Below, in pieces: positions 15,470 to 30,952 of a stretch of DNA of 37,521 bases. The first letter of the stretch is position 1; each line of letters opens with the position of its first letter. The stretch is from Sunxiuqinia sp. (GTDB taxonomy: Bacteria > Bacteroidota > Bacteroidia > Bacteroidales > Prolixibacteraceae): NCBI GenBank assembly GCA_024635605.1, contig JAGXIR010000190.1, positions 1-37,521 on the forward strand, written 5' to 3'. Under the pieces are notes generated by a model. The model had not been told where the DNA came from, ran no database searches, and saw only the letters and a list, made by a program, of their open reading frames with translations. Position numbers and translations under genes: made by a program.

Positions 15470-16675
15470 TTAAAGCTTAAGCCGAATATTGAATTTCGAC
15501 AAAAGCGCAGCAAAACCAACCATCGCAAAGGCCCAGGCCAACGATCCGGCCACGGCCAGCAACTGACTTTCATCCTGTTTATAAAACAGAATGGGTAAAC
15601 TGAAACCCCAAATGAGGTTATAAACCACATCGGGAGCCAGGTAGGTGGTCAGTGAATTTTGGCCGGCCGGGAGAAAAACCCGCGACCAACGCTCTTTTTT
15701 CAACACATCGAGCAGGTAGAACAGCGCAGCAAAAACCAACATGCTGATGCCGTTGCAAACCATGCCCCAGCTTGGTGTAGCGTGAATTTTTGAAAAGATA
15801 AACCAGGGCCGAAGCATAAAACCCGCAGCCAGCGATAAAATACCAAGCAGCACGAGAATCGCCAAAAAGCGGAAGTGATTAGCAGCGTACTTTTTCAGCA
15901 AAAGACCAACCACCAGGCCAGCCAAAACAATAGCAGGCGTGCTACCACCAATGACCACTCCAAAAACCGGCTGTAAAGGATCGAGAAAAGCCAGCAATCC
16001 CAAGGGCGACAAGACATTCAGGATCATAAAAAAGAGCCAGCCACCAACGACGCCCCAAAAACGCTTCCCAACCAACAGGTAGGTGATGGTGGCCGCAAAG
16101 TAGCCCCAGCCAATCAATCCGAGGATGCCCCACCAACCGGTTTCCATCCATTGTACGTTTCCCGGTTCGCCAGCCCTAAAGACACCAGCCAAAGCCAGCA
16201 ACCCAAGAGCTCCCAATACCTTCAAACCAAGGTAAAGCCTTTTTCGGGTGGCGTTCCGAGGATATTGACTCCACACCAAAAAGATGCAAACATAAACCAG
16301 AACTCCCCACACAAAGCGGTTCATTCCCGTCAGTTCCGGATTGATTCGTCCGGTATTCAGCATCAGCACTCCAATCAGTAGCAGACTAATGGTACGTACA
16401 AAAATATGGGACAGAATTTCGCGGTTGGTTTGTCCTTTCTTTTTGCGTGAAGCAAAAGCAAAGGGCACAGAAAGGCCAACCATAAACAAAAATCCGGGGA
16501 AAACCCAGTCAGCCAAGCCCATGCCATCAAAATCGGCAGCGGTATGTCCCAACCACTCCGGCACGCCTGGAACATATAAATCATTCACAAAAAGCATCAA
16601 AAATAGGGTCAGACCCCGCATGATGTCGATGGAGAAAATACGCCCAGGTTTTGAGGTAAGTTTATTCTGGTTCAT
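15470..16675 (-). CDS. DUF5009/HGSNAT-like membrane acyltransferase
   Basis: An inner-membrane protein of 401 residues with about 10-11 hydrophobic segments. The N-terminal SIDIMRGLTLFLML (residue 15 on) and WVFPGFLFMVGLSVPFA are the hallmarks of the DUF5009 / heparan-alpha-glucosaminide N-acetyltransferase-like group, which includes NagX proteins. Such proteins are thought to acyl-modify or help import amino sugars across the membrane. The neighbouring GH20-like enzyme fits an amino-sugar theme. It begins 25 bases after the GH5-CBM stop, so it is in the same operon. The exact reaction is not known. Confidence 0.82.
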   Translation of the reverse strand: MNQNKLTSKPGRIFSIDIMRGLTLFLMLFVNDLYVPGVPEWLGHTAADFDGMGLADWVFPGFLFMVGLSVPFAFASRKKKGQTNREILSHIFVRTISLLLIGVLMLNTGRINPELTGMNRFVWGVLVYVCIFLVWSQYPRNATRKRLYLGLKVLGALGLLALAGVFRAGEPGNVQWMETGWWGILGLIGWGYFAATITYLLVGKRFWGVVGGWLFFMILNVLSPLGLLAFLDPLQPVFGVVIGGSTPAIVLAGLVVGLLLKKYAANHFRFLAILVLLGILSLAAGFMLRPWFIFSKIHATPSWGMVCNGISMLVFAALFYLLDVLKKERWSRVFLPAGQNSLTTYLAPDVVYNLIWGFSLPILFYKQDESQLLAVAGSLAWAFAMVGFAALLSKFNIRLKL

Positions 16676-16700: not shown

Positions 16701-18350
16701 TCAATGAACATCCAGCCAATCAATCAGCACCTCTCCCCGATTCACCTGTACTTTAATTTCGTTATCGCCTTCGATGAAGTTGTGTTTACCCAAATTTTGG
16801 AATGTCCATTGGTCTCCTTGCAATTCCAGCTCCAGTTTTTCGCCATTCAGCATCAACTCCAGTTGAGCATTTTCAGCCAGAGCTTGCGCTTTTAAGGTGA
16901 GTTGATAGGCTGCGGCCTGCAAACTCTCGACCCGATATGCGGTCCACTCGCCAGCTTTCAACTGAATGGCCTGCTCCGACGTGCGGCTTCCCTCAAGGTT
17001 GGCAGTTACCACCACAGGAACAGGTTCCTGAGTACGGTAGTTCTCCGATCTGCTGTCGCTGTCATGCACAAAGTACGACTCATCCATCCCGTCGTGCCCA
17101 TAGTTTTCCGCTTCAATGCGCAGGGGAACCCGCCGCAGCATGGCATGGACCACATCGGGATGGTACACACAATTTTCGAGTTTGATATTTTCCTCCAGCT
17201 CGGCAAAAATCCGGACAGCCTCTTCTCTTGAAGGTTTGGCCTCGCCACGCGAATAAGCCCTGACCAAATCCCATCCTTCCGGAGGCAAAATGGAATAAGG
17301 TGTATTTTGCGTGTCCATCTTTTTCCACGGCCAGAATGACCAGCCTATGTTGTTTTTCTCAAAATACTGCGATGTAGCAAAGTAAATGGCATTGCCCTTT
17401 TCTCCGGTTTCGCCTACCCACACCGGTACGTTAAGCTCCTCACGCTGTTCCAGAAAATGCTCGATACTGTTTAAATGGTCAGGCCGATTCCAACAATAGT
17501 AATGGAACTGGTAAAAAGCGTTGTCATCCAGCGGCTCGTCAAATAACGACCAGTTGTTGGACCAGTTGTAGCCTTCGATGGTAAACATGTGTTTCTGATC
17601 CACTTCCCGGATAGCCTGAATCAGACGCTTGTAGAACGGCACTAACTGGTCTTTGTATCTTTCGGCAGCACCGGTATTTTCAGGCAGCGGTTCGTTCAGC
17701 AAATCGTAGGCAGCCACGGTGGGTTCATCCTTGTAACGCCTTGCAATGCGAACCCACAACTCCACCAGCAAATCCTGATTTTTCGGATCGGTAAACAACT
17801 CGGGAATATCGTTTGGGCTGTCGTCAATATTCTGCCCAGTTTGCCCGCCCGGCGCACCATGCATATCGATAATGACATACAACTGATGTTTCTTGCACCA
17901 CGCGATTAGCTGATCGAGCAACAAAAAGCCCTCGTCAATAAACTCGTTGTTCTCGCCTTCGGTGACAAAAAGCCTCGAATTTAGCGCCGGACGTACGGAG
18001 TTGAAGCCCAGTTCAGCAATTCGTTCAATGTCGGCTTCAGTGATGTAGTTGGCTCGAAATGATTGCCAAAAGGCGGCGGCTTCATCTTCTCCGAGCATGT
18101 CAGAAATCAATTTCTCAATCCTTCGCGGTCGATCGCCATCTTTTCCGAAGCGCCACATGTAGCCCTCGGGCAGCATCCAGTTGCCCAAGCCTACACCGCG
18201 CAGATAGACGGCTTCACCATCTTCATTGACGATATCCTGCCCGTCGGTTTTCAGAAATTGCTGCGCCGATGCAGGAACGATAATTAACAAAAATGCTGCG
18301 ACAATCAGAATTTGCTTTCGAAACGGTATTGCTGTTTGATTATTGATCAT
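16701..18350 (-). CDS. Secreted GH5 glycoside hydrolase with C-terminal CBM
   Basis: An exported retaining beta-glycanase of 549 residues. The signal peptide ends at about residue 29 (PASAQ). The GH5 barrel begins with YLRGVGLGNWMLPEG near residue 50. The acid/base is E220 in YDLLNEP and the nucleophile is E314 in VWVGETG; the H-Y pair before it (FHYY) is also conserved. From about residue 415 a second domain (RIEAENYGHDGM, GEWTAYRVE, DWLDVH) looks like a CBM6/CBM35-type carbohydrate-binding module. GH5 covers cellulases, mannanases and exo-glucanases, so the glycan cannot be named from this. It follows the sulfatase gene by 76 bases. Confidence 0.88.
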   Translation of the reverse strand: MINNQTAIPFRKQILIVAAFLLIIVPASAQQFLKTDGQDIVNEDGEAVYLRGVGLGNWMLPEGYMWRFGKDGDRPRRIEKLISDMLGEDEAAAFWQSFRANYITEADIERIAELGFNSVRPALNSRLFVTEGENNEFIDEGFLLLDQLIAWCKKHQLYVIIDMHGAPGGQTGQNIDDSPNDIPELFTDPKNQDLLVELWVRIARRYKDEPTVAAYDLLNEPLPENTGAAERYKDQLVPFYKRLIQAIREVDQKHMFTIEGYNWSNNWSLFDEPLDDNAFYQFHYYCWNRPDHLNSIEHFLEQREELNVPVWVGETGEKGNAIYFATSQYFEKNNIGWSFWPWKKMDTQNTPYSILPPEGWDLVRAYSRGEAKPSREEAVRIFAELEENIKLENCVYHPDVVHAMLRRVPLRIEAENYGHDGMDESYFVHDSDSRSENYRTQEPVPVVVTANLEGSRTSEQAIQLKAGEWTAYRVESLQAAAYQLTLKAQALAENAQLELMLNGEKLELELQGDQWTFQNLGKHNFIEGDNEIKVQVNRGEVLIDWLDVH

Positions 18351-18426
18351 GTTCTTTTGGATTTAGTTGATACTACGAAGTTAATGAAAACTACTTTTGC
18401 TTGAATAAAACTTGGTTTTTCTAACC

Positions 18427-19848
18427 TTATTCGTCAACCCGGCCGGGCTCTCGACGGTTATTTCCCGGAGAATCGGTCAAATCATCGCCTAGATCTTCCC
18501 TAGCTTCATCGGCCAACGCTTCCAATTCAGTCACCACTTCCGGATAGAATTCCATCACATTATAGCGTTCGCCCGGATCGCGACGAAGATCGTACAAGCC
18601 TTTCTCAATCAACACATTTTCCGGGGTTTTCCCGGGTTGGCCATCTTTCCCGATGGTGTTGTTTTCATAGGTTCGGCCGTGATGCTCAAACACCAGTTTC
18701 CAATTTCCACTGCGTACCGCCTCCAGGTTGTTCCGCCGGTAATAATACAGGAAGCTGCTTCGTGGTTGCGTTTCAAAATTTCCTTTGATCAGTTCAGCCA
18801 AATTAACACCGTCAATTTTCTTTTCCGGTATGGGGCTTTCTGCCAGAGTTGCCAGGGTGGGCAAAATGTCAATCCCAGCAGTCAGGGAATTACAAACCGC
18901 TCCTTCGGGTGTTACACCTTTCCATTTCATGACGCATGGCACACGCTGGCCGCCTTCAAAAGTGGTTCCTTTCCCTTCACGCAGCCCACCCGAACTGCCG
19001 GCATGGTTGCCGTAAGTCATCCAGGGACCGTTGTCGGAAATAACAATGACCAATGTATTTTCGGCCAGATTTAATTCTTCCAGCATTTGATTGATTTGCC
19101 CGATGCTCCAGTCAATTTCCATGATCACATCGCCGTAGAGTCCTTGTTCTGACTTGCCTTTAAAAGCCTCGGACACAAAAAGCGGAACATGCGGCATGGG
19201 ATGAGCCAGGTAAACAAAGAATGGATTCTCCTGATTCTTTTGGATGAACTCAAGAGTTCTTTGGGTGAAGTTCTGAGTAAAGTGCGATTGATCTGGATTT
19301 TCCTCGATCACCTCATTCCCCTCAAACAAAGGAAGAGGCGGATAATAGTTCTTGTTGACCGGATGATTCGGCCACATATCGTTGGAATACGGAATGCCAT
19401 AAAACTCGTCAAAACCATGTTGCAAGGGCAAAAACTTTTTATGATGCCCTAAATGCCATTTGCCAAAAACAGCCGTAGCATACCCTTTTTCCTTCAAAAG
19501 TTCGGGAATGGTTTGCTCATCCGGGTTGATCCCCATCTGGGCACGGTGATCCAACGCGCCGGAAAAACCAACCCGGTTGGGATAACAGCCGGTGAGCAAT
19601 CCCGCACGCGAAGCGCTGCAAACGGCTTGTGGCGAATAAAAATGTGAAAAGACAATTCCTTCGCCCGCCATTTTATCGATGTTGGGCGTGGAAAATCCGG
19701 TTGCCCCGTTCAGCGAAACATCGCCATAGCCCATATCATCCATATTAATCAGAACAATATTGGGTAGACGACTCGATTCGGTCTTTTCAGTTGTTGTGCA
19801 CGCTGCCAGTCCGGCAAGCGCGACAAAAGTAGTGAGAATAGGTTTCAT
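18427..19848 (-). CDS. S1-family sulfatase, lipoprotein
   Basis: A cell-envelope sulfatase of 473 residues. A lipobox LAGLAAC puts the lipidated cysteine at C17. The metal-site start NIVLINMDDMGYGD is at 30-43. The formylglycine signature C-S-A-S-R is at 77-81, so C77 should be converted to formylglycine by a maturase not seen in the window. GKWHLG and the later SDNGP metal-site motif are intact. The CxAxR form is the less common variant of CxPxR but is accepted in S1 sulfatases. It removes sulfate esters from a glycan or a small substrate. It starts 4 bases after the stop of the chimeric remnant, so it would be co-transcribed with it. Confidence 0.92.
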   Translation of the reverse strand: MKPILTTFVALAGLAACTTTEKTESSRLPNIVLINMDDMGYGDVSLNGATGFSTPNIDKMAGEGIVFSHFYSPQAVCSASRAGLLTGCYPNRVGFSGALDHRAQMGINPDEQTIPELLKEKGYATAVFGKWHLGHHKKFLPLQHGFDEFYGIPYSNDMWPNHPVNKNYYPPLPLFEGNEVIEENPDQSHFTQNFTQRTLEFIQKNQENPFFVYLAHPMPHVPLFVSEAFKGKSEQGLYGDVIMEIDWSIGQINQMLEELNLAENTLVIVISDNGPWMTYGNHAGSSGGLREGKGTTFEGGQRVPCVMKWKGVTPEGAVCNSLTAGIDILPTLATLAESPIPEKKIDGVNLAELIKGNFETQPRSSFLYYYRRNNLEAVRSGNWKLVFEHHGRTYENNTIGKDGQPGKTPENVLIEKGLYDLRRDPGERYNVMEFYPEVVTELEALADEAREDLGDDLTDSPGNNRREPGRVDE

Positions 19849-19852
19849 CGGT

Positions 19853-20310
19853 TTATTTTTTCATAGTTGGTTCAGGATGTTCATCAAAATCAAATGAGTT
19901 GAAATAATACAGCCCTGCATCTTTATATTGCTTCAAATGTGGTTTTAGGCGACTGAGAAAGTCTGCATAATCTTTTTGAGCATCATTTGACCAAACCGAC
20001 TCAGCCATGGCTGCCAAACGCTGGTCGGGAGCACCGGCCCACAACGATGTTTTGCCCAAACGGGAATGCCCGAAAACAACCATTTTATTTTCTTCTATGT
20101 CAGCATCGTCCACAAAATAATCCATGGCGCGGCGCAGTCCCCAAGAGCAAGCGGCAAGCGAGCCCCACTCATCGGCAGCAGGACGCAGATGGGCATCCAC
20201 ATAAAAGAACGAGGCTTTTTCTATGTTTTTTGGCAAATACATCAGGATATTTAAATGAGTTGTTTTCCCGTCTTTTTCAAAACGATGTTCAAATAGAGAG
20301 TTGCCAAAAA
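19853..20310 (-). pseudogene. Chimeric remnant: CE15 esterase fused to GH20 tail
   Basis: One open frame of 152 codons made of three homology blocks. Block 1 (about 20310-20218) resembles the N-terminal part of CE15 glucuronoyl esterases (DGKTTHLNILMYLPKN) but lacks a signal peptide. Block 2 (about 20205-20030) is the CE15 core: RPAADEWGS, SWGLRRAMDYF and the nucleophile motif GHSRLGKTSLWAGA. About 100 family residues are missing between them. Block 3 (about 20025-19853) is unlike CE15 and matches the end of GH20 hexosaminidases (AAMAESVWSN, DFLSRLKPHL, DAGLYYF). The CE15 catalytic His and the whole GH20 active site are gone. The first ATG is at 20242. It follows the GH5 stop with no gap and sits 4 bases before the sulfatase. 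Confidence 0.75.
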
Positions 20311-21453
20311 TTAATACTTCTGCAATAAATTCAGCAGTTTGCGATCGAGTTTGTGTCCGTGCCAGTCTTCATAATCCACATCTGTACGTCCGGAATCCAT
20401 AATGCCGAAATCGCCACGAAAGTTCCACAATCCATAACCAATTCCATGTGGTGTGAGCACATCCAGCACATCGCCAAACCATGACAAAAATACTTCATGA
20501 GGAGTTTCGCGCCAGCATCCGCATTCACCGCAATGCACGCCCACTCCTTTTTCCACTGCCGCAATCCATGGCTTGTAGAATTCTTCCAGGTCTTCGCGAC
20601 TGAAATGTTTTCCGTCAATTTCACCCGGCCAGACAGGTTCCGGTGCCTCATCGGGATTTTCAAAAACCCACGGGGCACGGTAGTGCGAAATGTAGTGCGG
20701 ATGATAACCGCGACAGCTCTGAGCAATGTCGAGGTCGAAGATTTCGGGAATCACATCGCTTCCCACATTGTTTCCGTCGGCCACCATGCGGTGATTGGGA
20801 TTATGTACACGAATGGTTTCCATGGCATTTTTAGCCACTTTCCGGTACAAAACTCCGGGAACCGGGCCTCGACCGGAAAACTGGTCGTTCATGTCTTCGC
20901 GGGTGCAGGGTTCGTTCACCAAGTCGAAACTAATTTGATCCGGCGTTTTTGAAGCAAACCGTTTGGCCCACATATCCCAGTGTGCGTAAAAAGCTTCCTG
21001 TGCTTTGTCATCCTGCCACAAATTATAAGGTTCGTGAAAACCGGCATTTACGCAAAAACCGGGAGCACGGTGAAGGTTCAGACTCATGTGCAACCCGTAT
21101 TTATTGGCGCGCTCAACCAGCGCTTCAATTTCATCGACTTTTTGCTCATCAAAATTCAACACACCTTCGGGAGTAATGTCTTTGGATGGATCAAATTTAA
21201 CATATCGCGGGTAAGCCATGGGAAGCCGTACAAAGTTAAATCCCCAGTCGGCCATCCATTTCAAATCGTCGTCAGTAGTCACCGGAAGATTATCGCGCAC
21301 CTGAGCATTGAAATAATCGAGCAGGTTGAATCCTTTCCAGCGGGGCAGCGGGTTATTATTCTGATTGAAAAGATTACCGGCTGAAACATTGGCAGCCAGT
21401 CCAACTCCGGCAGTAACCATACCGGAAGTTTTGATAAAAGTTCTTCGCCTCAT
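20311..21453 (-). CDS. TAT-exported GH5 glycoside hydrolase
   Basis: A secreted retaining glycoside hydrolase of 380 residues. The N-terminus MRRRTFIK followed by a mild hydrophobic segment is a twin-arginine signal, ending near NVSAG. The barrel carries NLLDYF and WGFNFVRLPMAYPR, the acid/base E181 in FDLVNEP, and the nucleophile E310 in HCGECGCW. The nucleophile is framed by C308, C311 and C313 instead of the usual W-GEFG context. The C-terminus GLWNFRGDFGIM to LLNLLQKY looks complete. The next gene in transcription order is the CE15-GH20 remnant, whose frame opens right at this stop codon. Confidence 0.88.
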   Translation of the reverse strand: MRRRTFIKTSGMVTAGVGLAANVSAGNLFNQNNNPLPRWKGFNLLDYFNAQVRDNLPVTTDDDLKWMADWGFNFVRLPMAYPRYVKFDPSKDITPEGVLNFDEQKVDEIEALVERANKYGLHMSLNLHRAPGFCVNAGFHEPYNLWQDDKAQEAFYAHWDMWAKRFASKTPDQISFDLVNEPCTREDMNDQFSGRGPVPGVLYRKVAKNAMETIRVHNPNHRMVADGNNVGSDVIPEIFDLDIAQSCRGYHPHYISHYRAPWVFENPDEAPEPVWPGEIDGKHFSREDLEEFYKPWIAAVEKGVGVHCGECGCWRETPHEVFLSWFGDVLDVLTPHGIGYGLWNFRGDFGIMDSGRTDVDYEDWHGHKLDRKLLNLLQKY

Positions 21454-21477: not shown

Positions 21478-21507
21478 TAAAGATACAATTTGGGGTGGAA
21501 CAGGCAA
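21478..21507 (-). promoter_or_regulatory. Likely promoter of the GH5 gene
   Basis: Read on the minus strand, TTG (21507-21505) is followed after exactly 19 bases by TATCTTTA (21485-21478). This fits TTG-N19-TAnnTTTG with one mismatch at the last base. The -7 box lies about 25 bases before the GH5 ATG. Confidence 0.4.
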
Positions 21508-21545: not shown

Positions 21546-21857
21546 TTACTTCAAGGTTGGTTGAAGAAATTCATTGTTCGCCGGAGATACCGCAATCACA
21601 TAATCTCCTTCGTCGAGTCTGAGAATACCTGTTTCCGGGCTTTTATAAGCTTGTAAATCCAATATTTCACCATCCTTCTCGATAACTATTTGCTTTTTTT
21701 CATTGACCGTCTGAATACAATCAAAAGTTTTGAAGCTGATCCCTGGAGTTTCTCTGAAAGTAAAACTACCATCAAGGGAGATAGTATTCGTTTTCGCCCG
21801 GACAAGGATCGAAAAAAGGTCATTACCGAAGCGACATTTGATCCTCGCTAAACGCAT
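21546..21857 (-). pseudogene. Unrecognised 103-residue frame, possible C-terminal remnant
   Basis: A frame of about 103 residues from ATG 21857 (TTG 21860 just before it). It has no signal peptide although nearly all neighbours are exported. The last 70 residues alternate hydrophobic and charged positions like beta-sandwich strands (GSFTFRETPGISF, KKQIVIEKDGEILDL, GILRLDEGDYVIAV), as in the C-terminal accessory domain of many glycoside hydrolases. I do not recognise the family. The frame starts inside a hairpin that looks like a terminator, which argues against a normal intact gene. It could equally be a genuine small protein. Confidence 0.4.
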
Positions 21858-21858
21858 C

Positions 21859-21894
21859 AAAGCCCCGGAAGAACTTGGTTCCCGGGGCTTTTTT
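21859..21894 (+). terminator. Strong hairpin with T-run, orientation unclear
   Basis: AAAGCCCCGG (21859-21868) pairs with CCGGGGCTTT (21882-21891), with an inner GAAC/GTTC helix and loop TTG. The plus strand runs into six T, the minus strand into only three. No plus-strand gene precedes it. On the minus strand it directly follows the stop of a 43-codon frame (21899-21897), so it may be the bidirectional terminator of a lost gene. Confidence 0.7.
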
Positions 21895-28684: not shown

Positions 28685-29656
28685 TTAGTGCTTCATATAC
28701 TTCAATTTAATGATGTTTCCTTCTTGCTGTGCTTTGACTGGAGAAATCCGCTCAATTAAATGAATCACTTCTGCCAGCGATTCCCCTTCAATACTAAACG
28801 TATAAGGAAGATCCTTCACCAACGGATCAACTTCAAACTTTTGATTGTATCTCCGCTCCAGTTTAACAACCAGTTGCTCCAGTGGCAATTCGAAGATATT
28901 TAATATGCCATTTTTCCAAGACGTGTAATTCGCTGGTTTAACTTTCCTGGTTTGGATGGTGTTGGTGTTTTTATTAAAAACGGCCAGCTCTTCCGGTTTC
29001 AGGCTGGTGATAAATTTATCTGATGCCGATTGGATATCCACACTCCCCTCCTCCAGTACCACATTCACCTCATTCAGATCGTCGTAATTGGAAACGCCAA
29101 ATTGGGTGCCGGTCACCTTCACTTTCAGGGCTCCCAAATCAACAATAAACGGATTCTTGCGATTTTTGGCCACTTCAAAATAAGCTTCGCCCTGAACCTG
29201 AATTGCTCTGTTGTGAATCCCGTATTGGTTGTCGTAAGTTAATTTGGTATCGGCATTGACCCAGATTTTACTTCCATCGGGTAGGATCACCGTTGACATT
29301 TGCCCCAGATCCGTATGAATCTGGGTGAGTTGAAGTTCGGTATTGAACGGCTTATTGTACACCAACACAGCCCCTGACAAACCGACCACCAACAAGGCAA
29401 TGGCCGCGTAGCGGTACCAGTTCAGCAAACGTGCCGACCGCTTCAGCTGCTGCTTTTCCTTTAAGCGTTCACGAAGGCGAACTTGCCCCATGTCTGATGT
29501 TCGCCCTTCCCGGCTCAATTGCCTTTCTTTCCACCACCTGGCTTTTTCCGAATCAAAAACCTGTTGGTGTTCTTTTTCCCGAAGCCAGTCAAGCAAGGCT
29601 TGCTGCTCTTTTCCCAGCAGTTTACCTTCTAAATATTGTTGTATTTTCTCTTTCAT
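28685..29656 (-). CDS. FecR-family anti-sigma factor
   Basis: An inner-membrane anti-sigma/sigma regulator of 323 residues. Residues 1-80 form the cytoplasmic sigma-binding part, 83-100 are a single membrane span (AAIALLVVGLSGAVLVY), and the periplasmic FecR domain follows (TVILPDGSKIWVNADTKLTY, GEAYFEVAKN, VTGTQFGVSNY, VVLEEGSVDI). The last 80 residues match the DUF4974 end of Bacteroidota FecR proteins (LEQLVVKLERRYNQKFEV). It should pass a signal from the SusC STN domain to the ECF sigma. Unusually, about 700 bases of repeat-like DNA separate it from the sigma gene. Confidence 0.94.
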   Translation of the reverse strand: MKEKIQQYLEGKLLGKEQQALLDWLREKEHQQVFDSEKARWWKERQLSREGRTSDMGQVRLRERLKEKQQLKRSARLLNWYRYAAIALLVVGLSGAVLVYNKPFNTELQLTQIHTDLGQMSTVILPDGSKIWVNADTKLTYDNQYGIHNRAIQVQGEAYFEVAKNRKNPFIVDLGALKVKVTGTQFGVSNYDDLNEVNVVLEEGSVDIQSASDKFITSLKPEELAVFNKNTNTIQTRKVKPANYTSWKNGILNIFELPLEQLVVKLERRYNQKFEVDPLVKDLPYTFSIEGESLAEVIHLIERISPVKAQQEGNIIKLKYMKH

Positions 29657-29799
29657 TATCGATTAGCCTTTCAATATCAATACACGGGAACTCAAAAATC
29701 CCTACCCCCTTGGAGAGAATTATTTTTCTTGGATCAATTAATTCGTATTTGCTAGATTTATGCAATAGAACAAAGAGAACAACGAATAGCATCTATACT

Positions 29800-30345
29800 C
29801 AGGTCCCCCCGGGCCGCGTTGGTGGGGCTTTGCCCCAAGCCCCAGTTCCTTTTTTGCCTTGATGCCAAAAAGGAACCAAAAAAGATCAAGGCTGACGATG
29901 CTTTGGCTGGAAAACTACGGATCAGTCACTCCCCGAAAACCAACTCCGATCCTGACTACAGGATCGTCAAACAGGCTTTTCTTAGCCAGTGCCATCGCGG
30001 TTTCCTTCCCTTGTTTTCCATAGCCAAACCCTCGTAGGCCGCCTAAGCCCGCCTGCTTGAAACGCCATCCTGCAAACTTGATGAAAGATCGAAATCCTTA
30101 AGCCCCACACTTCGCCTTGTGAAAGCAGCGATGGCCGATAACGGCGGCACCGGAGTTCGCACTGTCGCCGGCGGTTGGATTACCTGCCCTTGTCAAAGGG
30201 TAGGTGTTCCGATGTCCATCGGAACGGAAGGGTCAAAAAGCAGTCCACTGCTCTTGGTGTATTTGGCCAACAGATTCCGAAACAAGTTCGGAAAGACACT
30301 TCTTTAATCGAATGCCCCAATGAAAGGCCCCGCGATATTTCGGCA
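29800..30345. repeat. Hairpin-rich intergenic element between sigma and anti-sigma
   Basis: A train of hairpins in GC-richer DNA: TGGGGC-ttt-GCCCCA (29823-29837), GTTCCTTTTTTG/CAAAAAGGAAC (29845-29876), CGATCCTG-acta-CAGGATCG (29947-29966), ACCTGCCCTT/AAGGGTAGGT (30182-30205), GTTCCGATG-tc-CATCGGAAC (30206-30225) and TTCCGAA/TTCGGAA near 30276-30296. Short frames here have no coding character. The text GGGGCTTTGCCCC followed by AGTTCCTTTTTT resembles a repeat I recall from many Bacteroidota intergenic regions, which I cannot verify here. It fills most of the gap from 29657 to 30358; the rest is AT-rich with no gene. Confidence 0.65.
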
Positions 30346-30358
30346 TAAGGATGGTCAC

Positions 30359-30952
30359 TTACCTGAGAATCATCAAAATAAGTAAGGAAAGTTCGGGGAA
30401 CCGGGCAATTAAATCCTGACGCAGGTGGTTCCTGGCTTTGGCCAAATTTTTCTCCACCGCTTTAAGTGAGATCCCAAGCTCGTCGGCCACATCCTGCTGC
30501 CGGCATCCTTCGATTTTACATTTCACCAAGATTTGATTCTGCCGTTCGGGAAGGCGGTCGATGGCATTTTTCAGGGCTTCGAACAATTGTTCTTCAAGCG
30601 TTTTGTCTTCTCTCCCCGAAAAGTCGATTTGATACAAATGCTGCAATTCGCTCCACGAGTATTCATCCAGCGAGAAAGACTCTGCCTGCAATTTTTGATC
30701 GCGAATATGGTTTAAACAATGATTTCGAAGGATGGTAAACAACAGGCTTTCGACTGATCGATCCGGCTGGATCAGCGCTCTTTTTTCCCACAACCGCACA
30801 TAGGCATTTTGAACAAGATCCTCAACCAGAACATGATCTTTGATAAAAATCTTGCAATAGTTTTTTAAGCGAGCCGCCGTTAACGAATACAAGGTATCAT
30901 AACTGCCTGGAATGCCGTTTTTGAGATCAATATTTAAGGACTTATCAATCAT
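30359..30952 (-). CDS. ECF sigma-70 factor
   Basis: An extracytoplasmic-function RNA polymerase sigma factor of 197 residues. Region 2 lies at about 20-85 (YCKIFIKDHVLVEDLVQNAYVRLWEKR, LLFTILRNHCLNHIRDQ) and region 4 at about 125-180 (IDRLPERQNQILVKCKIEGCRQQDVADELGISLKAVEKNLAKAR). No extra domains. The neighbouring FecR and STN-SusC make it the output of a trans-envelope glycan-sensing pathway, with the susC promoter as the expected target. It would be held inactive by FecR until the glycan binds. Its gene is first in the locus. Confidence 0.95.
   Translation of the reverse strand: MIDKSLNIDLKNGIPGSYDTLYSLTAARLKNYCKIFIKDHVLVEDLVQNAYVRLWEKRALIQPDRSVESLLFTILRNHCLNHIRDQKLQAESFSLDEYSWSELQHLYQIDFSGREDKTLEEQLFEALKNAIDRLPERQNQILVKCKIEGCRQQDVADELGISLKAVEKNLAKARNHLRQDLIARFPELSLLILMILR

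Follow-up and report, generated by a model that had tools for sequence, protein, structure and literature searches.

Orphan open reading frames (ORFs) of Rickettsia have been described as fragments of formerly functional genes (PMC2447293). RecA-independent deletion between short direct repeats removes the intervening DNA and leaves one repeat copy (PMC5426353). Here we describe a frame that resembles both and lies in a bacterial sugar-degradation gene cluster of Sunxiuqinia sp. The window, that is the whole stretch of DNA analysed (37,521 nucleotides), is an entire contig of a 3.08-Mb genome that is 71% complete and consists of 240 contigs. Between a GH5 gene (GH5a) and a sulfatase gene, an uninterrupted frame on the minus strand (20308-19853; 151 residues and a stop codon) joins pieces of a CE15 glucuronoyl esterase and of a GH20 β-N-acetylhexosaminidase. 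Like the Rickettsia orphans, it is a short open frame made from genes that are whole in relatives; unlike them, it holds two unrelated parent families in one open frame, and two of its junction repeats are readable from relatives. It shares with the RecA-independent deletions the loss of intervening DNA and the single remaining copy, whereas its repeats are 9-14 bp long, imperfect at one junction (J2) and deduced from relatives rather than observed in a parent. We consider this chimera to be a gene remnant left by about four deletions in an ancestral enzyme locus, with a probability of roughly 0.85. The remnant is most likely recent and, we infer, without function.

The single-frame CE15/GH20 chimera, proposed earlier in a sequence-only reading, was borne out by Pfam and by alignments to intact relatives. 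That reading also had the frame begin exactly at the GH5 stop codon. It does not: from stop to stop the frame comprises 171 codons and reaches into the 3′ end of GH5a, in a different frame. The earliest ATG, GTG or TTG start is the ATG at 20242, which gives a product of 129 residues. The stop codon is TAA, and the sulfatase ATG follows after 4 nt. For the first nine residues no match was obtained in either family; they resemble a former spacer. The coordinates of all pieces, junctions and neighbouring genes are collected in Table 1.

Table 1. Pieces of the chimeric frame, its junctions and the flanking genes (positions in the window)
Feature	Position	Strand	Evidence
GH5a, intact, probably heads the transcription unit	20311..21453	-	PF00150, E 1.4e-23
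Residues FGNSLFEHR, probably the old GH5-CE15 spacer, now within the frame	20282..20308	-	No alignment to CE15 before residue ~109; junction J0 at 3′ end
CE15 fragment 1, residues ~109-131 of 427	20213..20281	-	Alignment to L027, L031, L055
J1, in-frame 252-bp (84-codon) internal CE15 deletion	20204..20215	-	Repeat support in 1 of 3 proxies
CE15 fragment 2, residues ~216-280, motif GHSRLGK; remaining CE15 lost	20018..20212	-	PF22244; alignment to G015 CE15
J2, R(F/L)AA short imperfect direct repeat, same phase in CE15 and GH20	20009..20020	-	Proxies from relatives
GH20 tail, final 55 residues of 543-residue GH20 and native stop	19853..20020	-	82% to GH20 of G001 and G006
J3, AAAAAATAA at GH20 stop	19853..19861	-	One copy here, two copies in G001 and G006
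Sulfatase, intact	18427..19848	-	PF00884, E 2.5e-59; 86-89% orthologues in G001, G005, G006
GH5b, second GH5 gene; downstream part of unit common to window and G005	16701..18350	-	91% to L053

The catalytic triad of CE15 enzymes is Ser-His-Glu/Asp (PMC11096219). Three intact CE15 sequences served as proxies: the 427-residue enzyme of G015 (L027:7589-8872), a 435-residue enzyme (L055) and the CE15 part of a 768-residue protein (L031). Residues 10-32 of the chimera (20281-20213) aligned to residues ~109-131 of the G015 enzyme, and residues 33-97 to residues ~216-280. The first piece had been taken for the CE15 N-terminus and is in fact internal, the match beginning near residue 109 of 427 with ~108 N-terminal residues gone. 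An inner gap was present as proposed; its size was 84 codons (252 bp) with all three proxies, not the ~100 residues first suggested. Also absent are the last ~145 residues of the intact enzyme, and the chimera contains neither the complete triad nor a full α/β-hydrolase domain. We take the retained GHSRLGK to be the CE15 catalytic Ser motif; the catalytic His and the acidic residue presumably lay within the missing segments.

Among PDB entries the chimera matched best the bacterial-type CE15 structures 8q6s (E 9.1e-18) and 6ehn. The CE15 part was 70% identical to residues 216-286 of the G015 enzyme, and about 70% was the highest identity to any relative found. Pfam assigned PF22244 (CE15-type) to residues 22-77 of the 129-residue ORF (E 3.2e-7), with a score of 30.9 bits against a cut-off of 27 and 58 of 231 profile positions covered. 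Since it passes this cut-off, automatic annotation would wrongly label the chimera a glucuronoyl esterase.

The GH20 catalytic domain, PF00728, carries an Asp-Glu pair. Residues 97-151 of the chimera (20020-19856) correspond to the last 55 residues of the GH20 of the congeners G001 and G006 (E 1.7e-25). Judged by this similarity between sequences, a chance match is excluded. When the tail was searched separately against a PDB set, all six matches at E ≤ 1 were β-N-acetylglucosaminidases or hexosaminidases (best 3.7e-4), in agreement with the family first assigned to it. The change of family, placed beforehand at about 20030-20005, was located at 20020-20009. In the relative's GH20, PF00728 spans residues 167-500, and the chimera keeps only the last dozen residues of the domain; a Pfam search of the chimera gave no PF00728 match at E ≤ 0.001.

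In relatives, the truncated genes were found intact at the syntenic place, in two halves. The upstream half is seen in G015, G034 and G016, where genes 72-77% identical to GH5a lie directly upstream of CE15. This order was present in 8 of 40 CE15 loci, these three included, inspected with flanks of ~1.5 kb, some of the remaining 32 loci being cut by contig ends. The downstream half is seen in G001 and G006, two of the six congeners: here a 644-residue heparinase II/III-like gene comes after GH20 and before the orthologue of the sulfatase (86-87%). The assignment of this gene as a lyase rests on PF07940 in the copy of G001 (L026:10942-12876). A third congener, G002, likewise carries a GH20 (50%) adjoining the lyase (43%), which makes an old origin of this adjacency within the genus probable. 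For the same reason, gain of the lyase gene in the congeners rather than its loss in the window is not favoured. In G003, G004 and G005, a search at E ≤ 1e-120 gave no GH20 of that type. G005 carries the order sulfatase - GH30 - GH5b - GH20x - SDR, which is the downstream part of the unit of the window.

The order GH5-CE15-...-GH20-lyase-sulfatase was seen in one piece in no genome examined, and the full ancestral order was therefore assembled from the two halves. It would have been GH5 - CE15 - (stretch of unassigned content) - GH20 - heparinase II/III-like lyase - sulfatase - GH5b. The collapse by deletions of an ancestral order GH5-CE15-GH20-sulfatase, as first suggested, thus stands in so far as both half-orders exist in relatives, and has to be amended by the lyase gene, which was probably lost from between GH20 and sulfatase as well.

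Some further differences in gene content were observed. The GH30 gene between sulfatase and GH5b in G005 (L053:6645-8075) has no counterpart at that place in the window (18351-18426), and the DUF5009 gene of the window (15470-16675) is absent from G005 at the corresponding place. Between two congeners (L100/L101), the heparinase-like protein is 98.8% identical, as against 91% for the adjacent GH20 and 98% for the sulfatase behind it. These values hint that the lyase-sulfatase stretch was recently exchanged.

Instead of the two internal deletions first counted, about four junctions (J0-J3) were found, with the CE15 N-terminus and probably the lyase gene also lost. The deletions, probably successive, would have removed the GH5-CE15 spacer to CE15 residue ~108, 84 codons within CE15, the DNA that ran from CE15 residue ~281-284 up to and including GH20 residue ~488, and the gene for the lyase. 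Short direct repeats, which the sequence-only reading had suggested looking for, were found by proxy from relatives at J2 and also at J3; they are not established at J1, where a single one of the three proxies gave support, or at J0, where a weak repeat was seen in one proxy. At J2, 10-12 of 14 bases agreed in the proxies (p under an any-phase null, 0 of 20,000 to 0.0041; six proxy pairs, random placements) and the longest exact run was 5-6 bases (p 0.007-0.03). In G001 and G006, 2079 or 2074 bp separate the two copies at J3, which enclose the heparinase II/III-like gene, the second copy preceding the sulfatase. The exact 9-bp run at J3 had p values of 3e-4 and 2e-4; the identity over 14 bases was weaker (p 0.018 and 0.004). 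The p values for J2 and J3 are optimistic, as both registers were chosen by eye after inspection. For J1, the repeat gave p values of 0.0046, 0.065 and 0.21 in the three proxies. The J0 repeat (p 0.002 for identity, 0.035 for run) was found by looking for it and is not claimed.

J2 and J3 may have been joined at these repeats via replication slippage or single-strand annealing. The CE15-GH20 join kept the frame because the J2 repeat is in phase in both parents. J1 is a multiple of three, presumably by chance (1 in 3), and the time elapsed would have been too short for a stop codon or a frameshift to arise. The earlier view that conservation of the frame is unexpected is not supported, since the J2 repeat is in phase and two frame-keeping joins are estimated to occur by luck in ~1 of 9 cases. 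The junctions can still be read and illustrate a way in which a locus for polysaccharide degradation becomes smaller: whole enzymes are deleted via short repeats that unrelated genes have in common, and an open frame can be left behind.

A similar frame could arise if reads had been wrongly joined or collapsed in the contig, and the genome, a draft that is probably metagenome-derived, is indeed fragmented and incomplete. Such an artefact would need several independent joins within 450 bp, at repeats of 9-14 bp that are partly imperfect. Usual assembly k-mers are longer than this. Moreover, the CE15 part is no more than ~70% identical to the relatives found, and searches of its own bin gave no second parent copy. 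We therefore regard an assembly artefact as very improbable. In its own genome, 71% complete, the lyase had no match and no close copy of the CE15 or GH20 parent was detected; apart from the remnant, the genome has a distant GH20 (36%) and two distant CE15s (55% and 33%).

In 109 of 140 genomes of the family there was some match, to one half of the chimera. The whole arrangement was present at E ≤ 1e-12 in its own genome and absent from the 139 others. Four of the matches that cross the joint and extend beyond residue 103 were opened: 46-136 in G153, 40-132 in G131, 44-121 in G042:C348 and 57-148 in G031. Three of them were CE15 homologues whose similarity to the G015 CE15 (52%, 36% and 46%, the last truncated at a contig end) extends over the segment that the window has lost; the fourth was a GH20 (52%). 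A family in which the whole arrangement is conserved was rejected on these grounds. No relatives of the chimera were confirmed in the genome contig collection or found in plasmids, and it is named in none of the titles that the literature searches listed.

The open frame could also reflect selection, either for a new small protein or for a translated relay. In the latter case, ribosomes would be carried from near GH5 to 4 nt before the sulfatase start, and deletions that kept the frame would have been favoured as they avoid polarity on downstream genes. The frame is open across 151 codons and two coding joins, and its stop codon lies 4 nt ahead of the sulfatase ATG. The GH20 tail has no excess of amino acid changes: pN/pS was 0.11-0.12 as compared to 0.10 for the sulfatase, and third positions accounted for 31 of 44 differences from G001 (sulfatase, 226 of 315). 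We simulated neutral decay with a simple model and assumed rates. At 5% neutral divergence, the frame stayed open in 46% of cases with substitutions only and in 7% with indels counted, the latter value favouring selection; at 2% divergence, the corresponding values were 73% and 34%. The simulated survival indicates that a recent event would account for the open frame without selection. Against selection also stand the occurrence in one of 140 family genomes, the absence of the catalytic regions and the change of residues that are invariant in intact CE15s, namely a W, invariant in all 41, that is replaced by C and an L, invariant in the 29 close ones, that is replaced by T. No positive support was found for a selected small protein, which had been offered as an alternative from the start, and we consider selection of either kind very unlikely. 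Fold prediction carries no weight here, since the mean pLDDT of the chimera (41.9) was close to that of an intact CE15 control (44.5), each from an equally shallow alignment of nine sequences.

The invariant W and L came from a comparison of the columns of 41 CE15s, of which the 29 close ones remain when 12 more distant ones are set aside (L005, L007, L010 and L001 were left out as duplicates or self). Of 46 columns at least 90% conserved in the 29 intact relatives, 9 are changed in the CE15 part, two of the nine being at junctions; no intact enzyme differs at more than 4. With the wider set (n = 41), the window deviates at 6 of 37, and two intact, distant enzymes at 8 of 39 each. The pN/pS of the CE15 part was 0.27-0.37, as against 0.18-0.25 between the three intact CE15s; by mean pN/pS it ranked second of 30, one intact enzyme being higher. 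The signal of decay was modest. Decay of CE15 may perhaps have begun before GH20 was cut.

A TATCTTTA box, which we take to resemble the Bacteroidetes -7 element, is located at 21478-21485 on the minus strand, 24 nt before the GH5a ATG. It was present in all four upstream regions inspected and lies at 24-28 nt from the start in L027, L031 and L055. As the box is shared with three relatives, transcription of the GH5 unit probably includes the remnant. It is conceivable that a 129-residue chimera of two unrelated enzymes, generated by the in-phase short-repeat deletion, is translated and was kept since its translation couples GH5 to the sulfatase start 4 nt downstream. We hold this to be very unlikely; if true, it would be an example of a gene in the early steps of being born from a decaying operon. 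As a gene remnant, the chimera cautions against annotation by family match and documents, as a small case, the origin of a chimeric ORF; it opens no new question.

Finally, five spacers of the window (GH130-GH5a, sulfatase-GH5b, SusD-GH130, GH5b-DUF5009 and 29640-30370) were searched for further deletion scars; at E ≤ 0.01, none gave a translated match with the loci compared. Between the GH130 and GH5a genes lies a 104-residue ORF (21546-21860, minus strand) without a Pfam match. It had one weak, stop-broken match (E 0.006) in 1 of 40 other genomes, and is possibly another remnant or spacer. Terminator-like sites in that region were not in excess (16 found, 13.2 expected). A GC-rich hairpin (21888-21862) adjoins the ORF.
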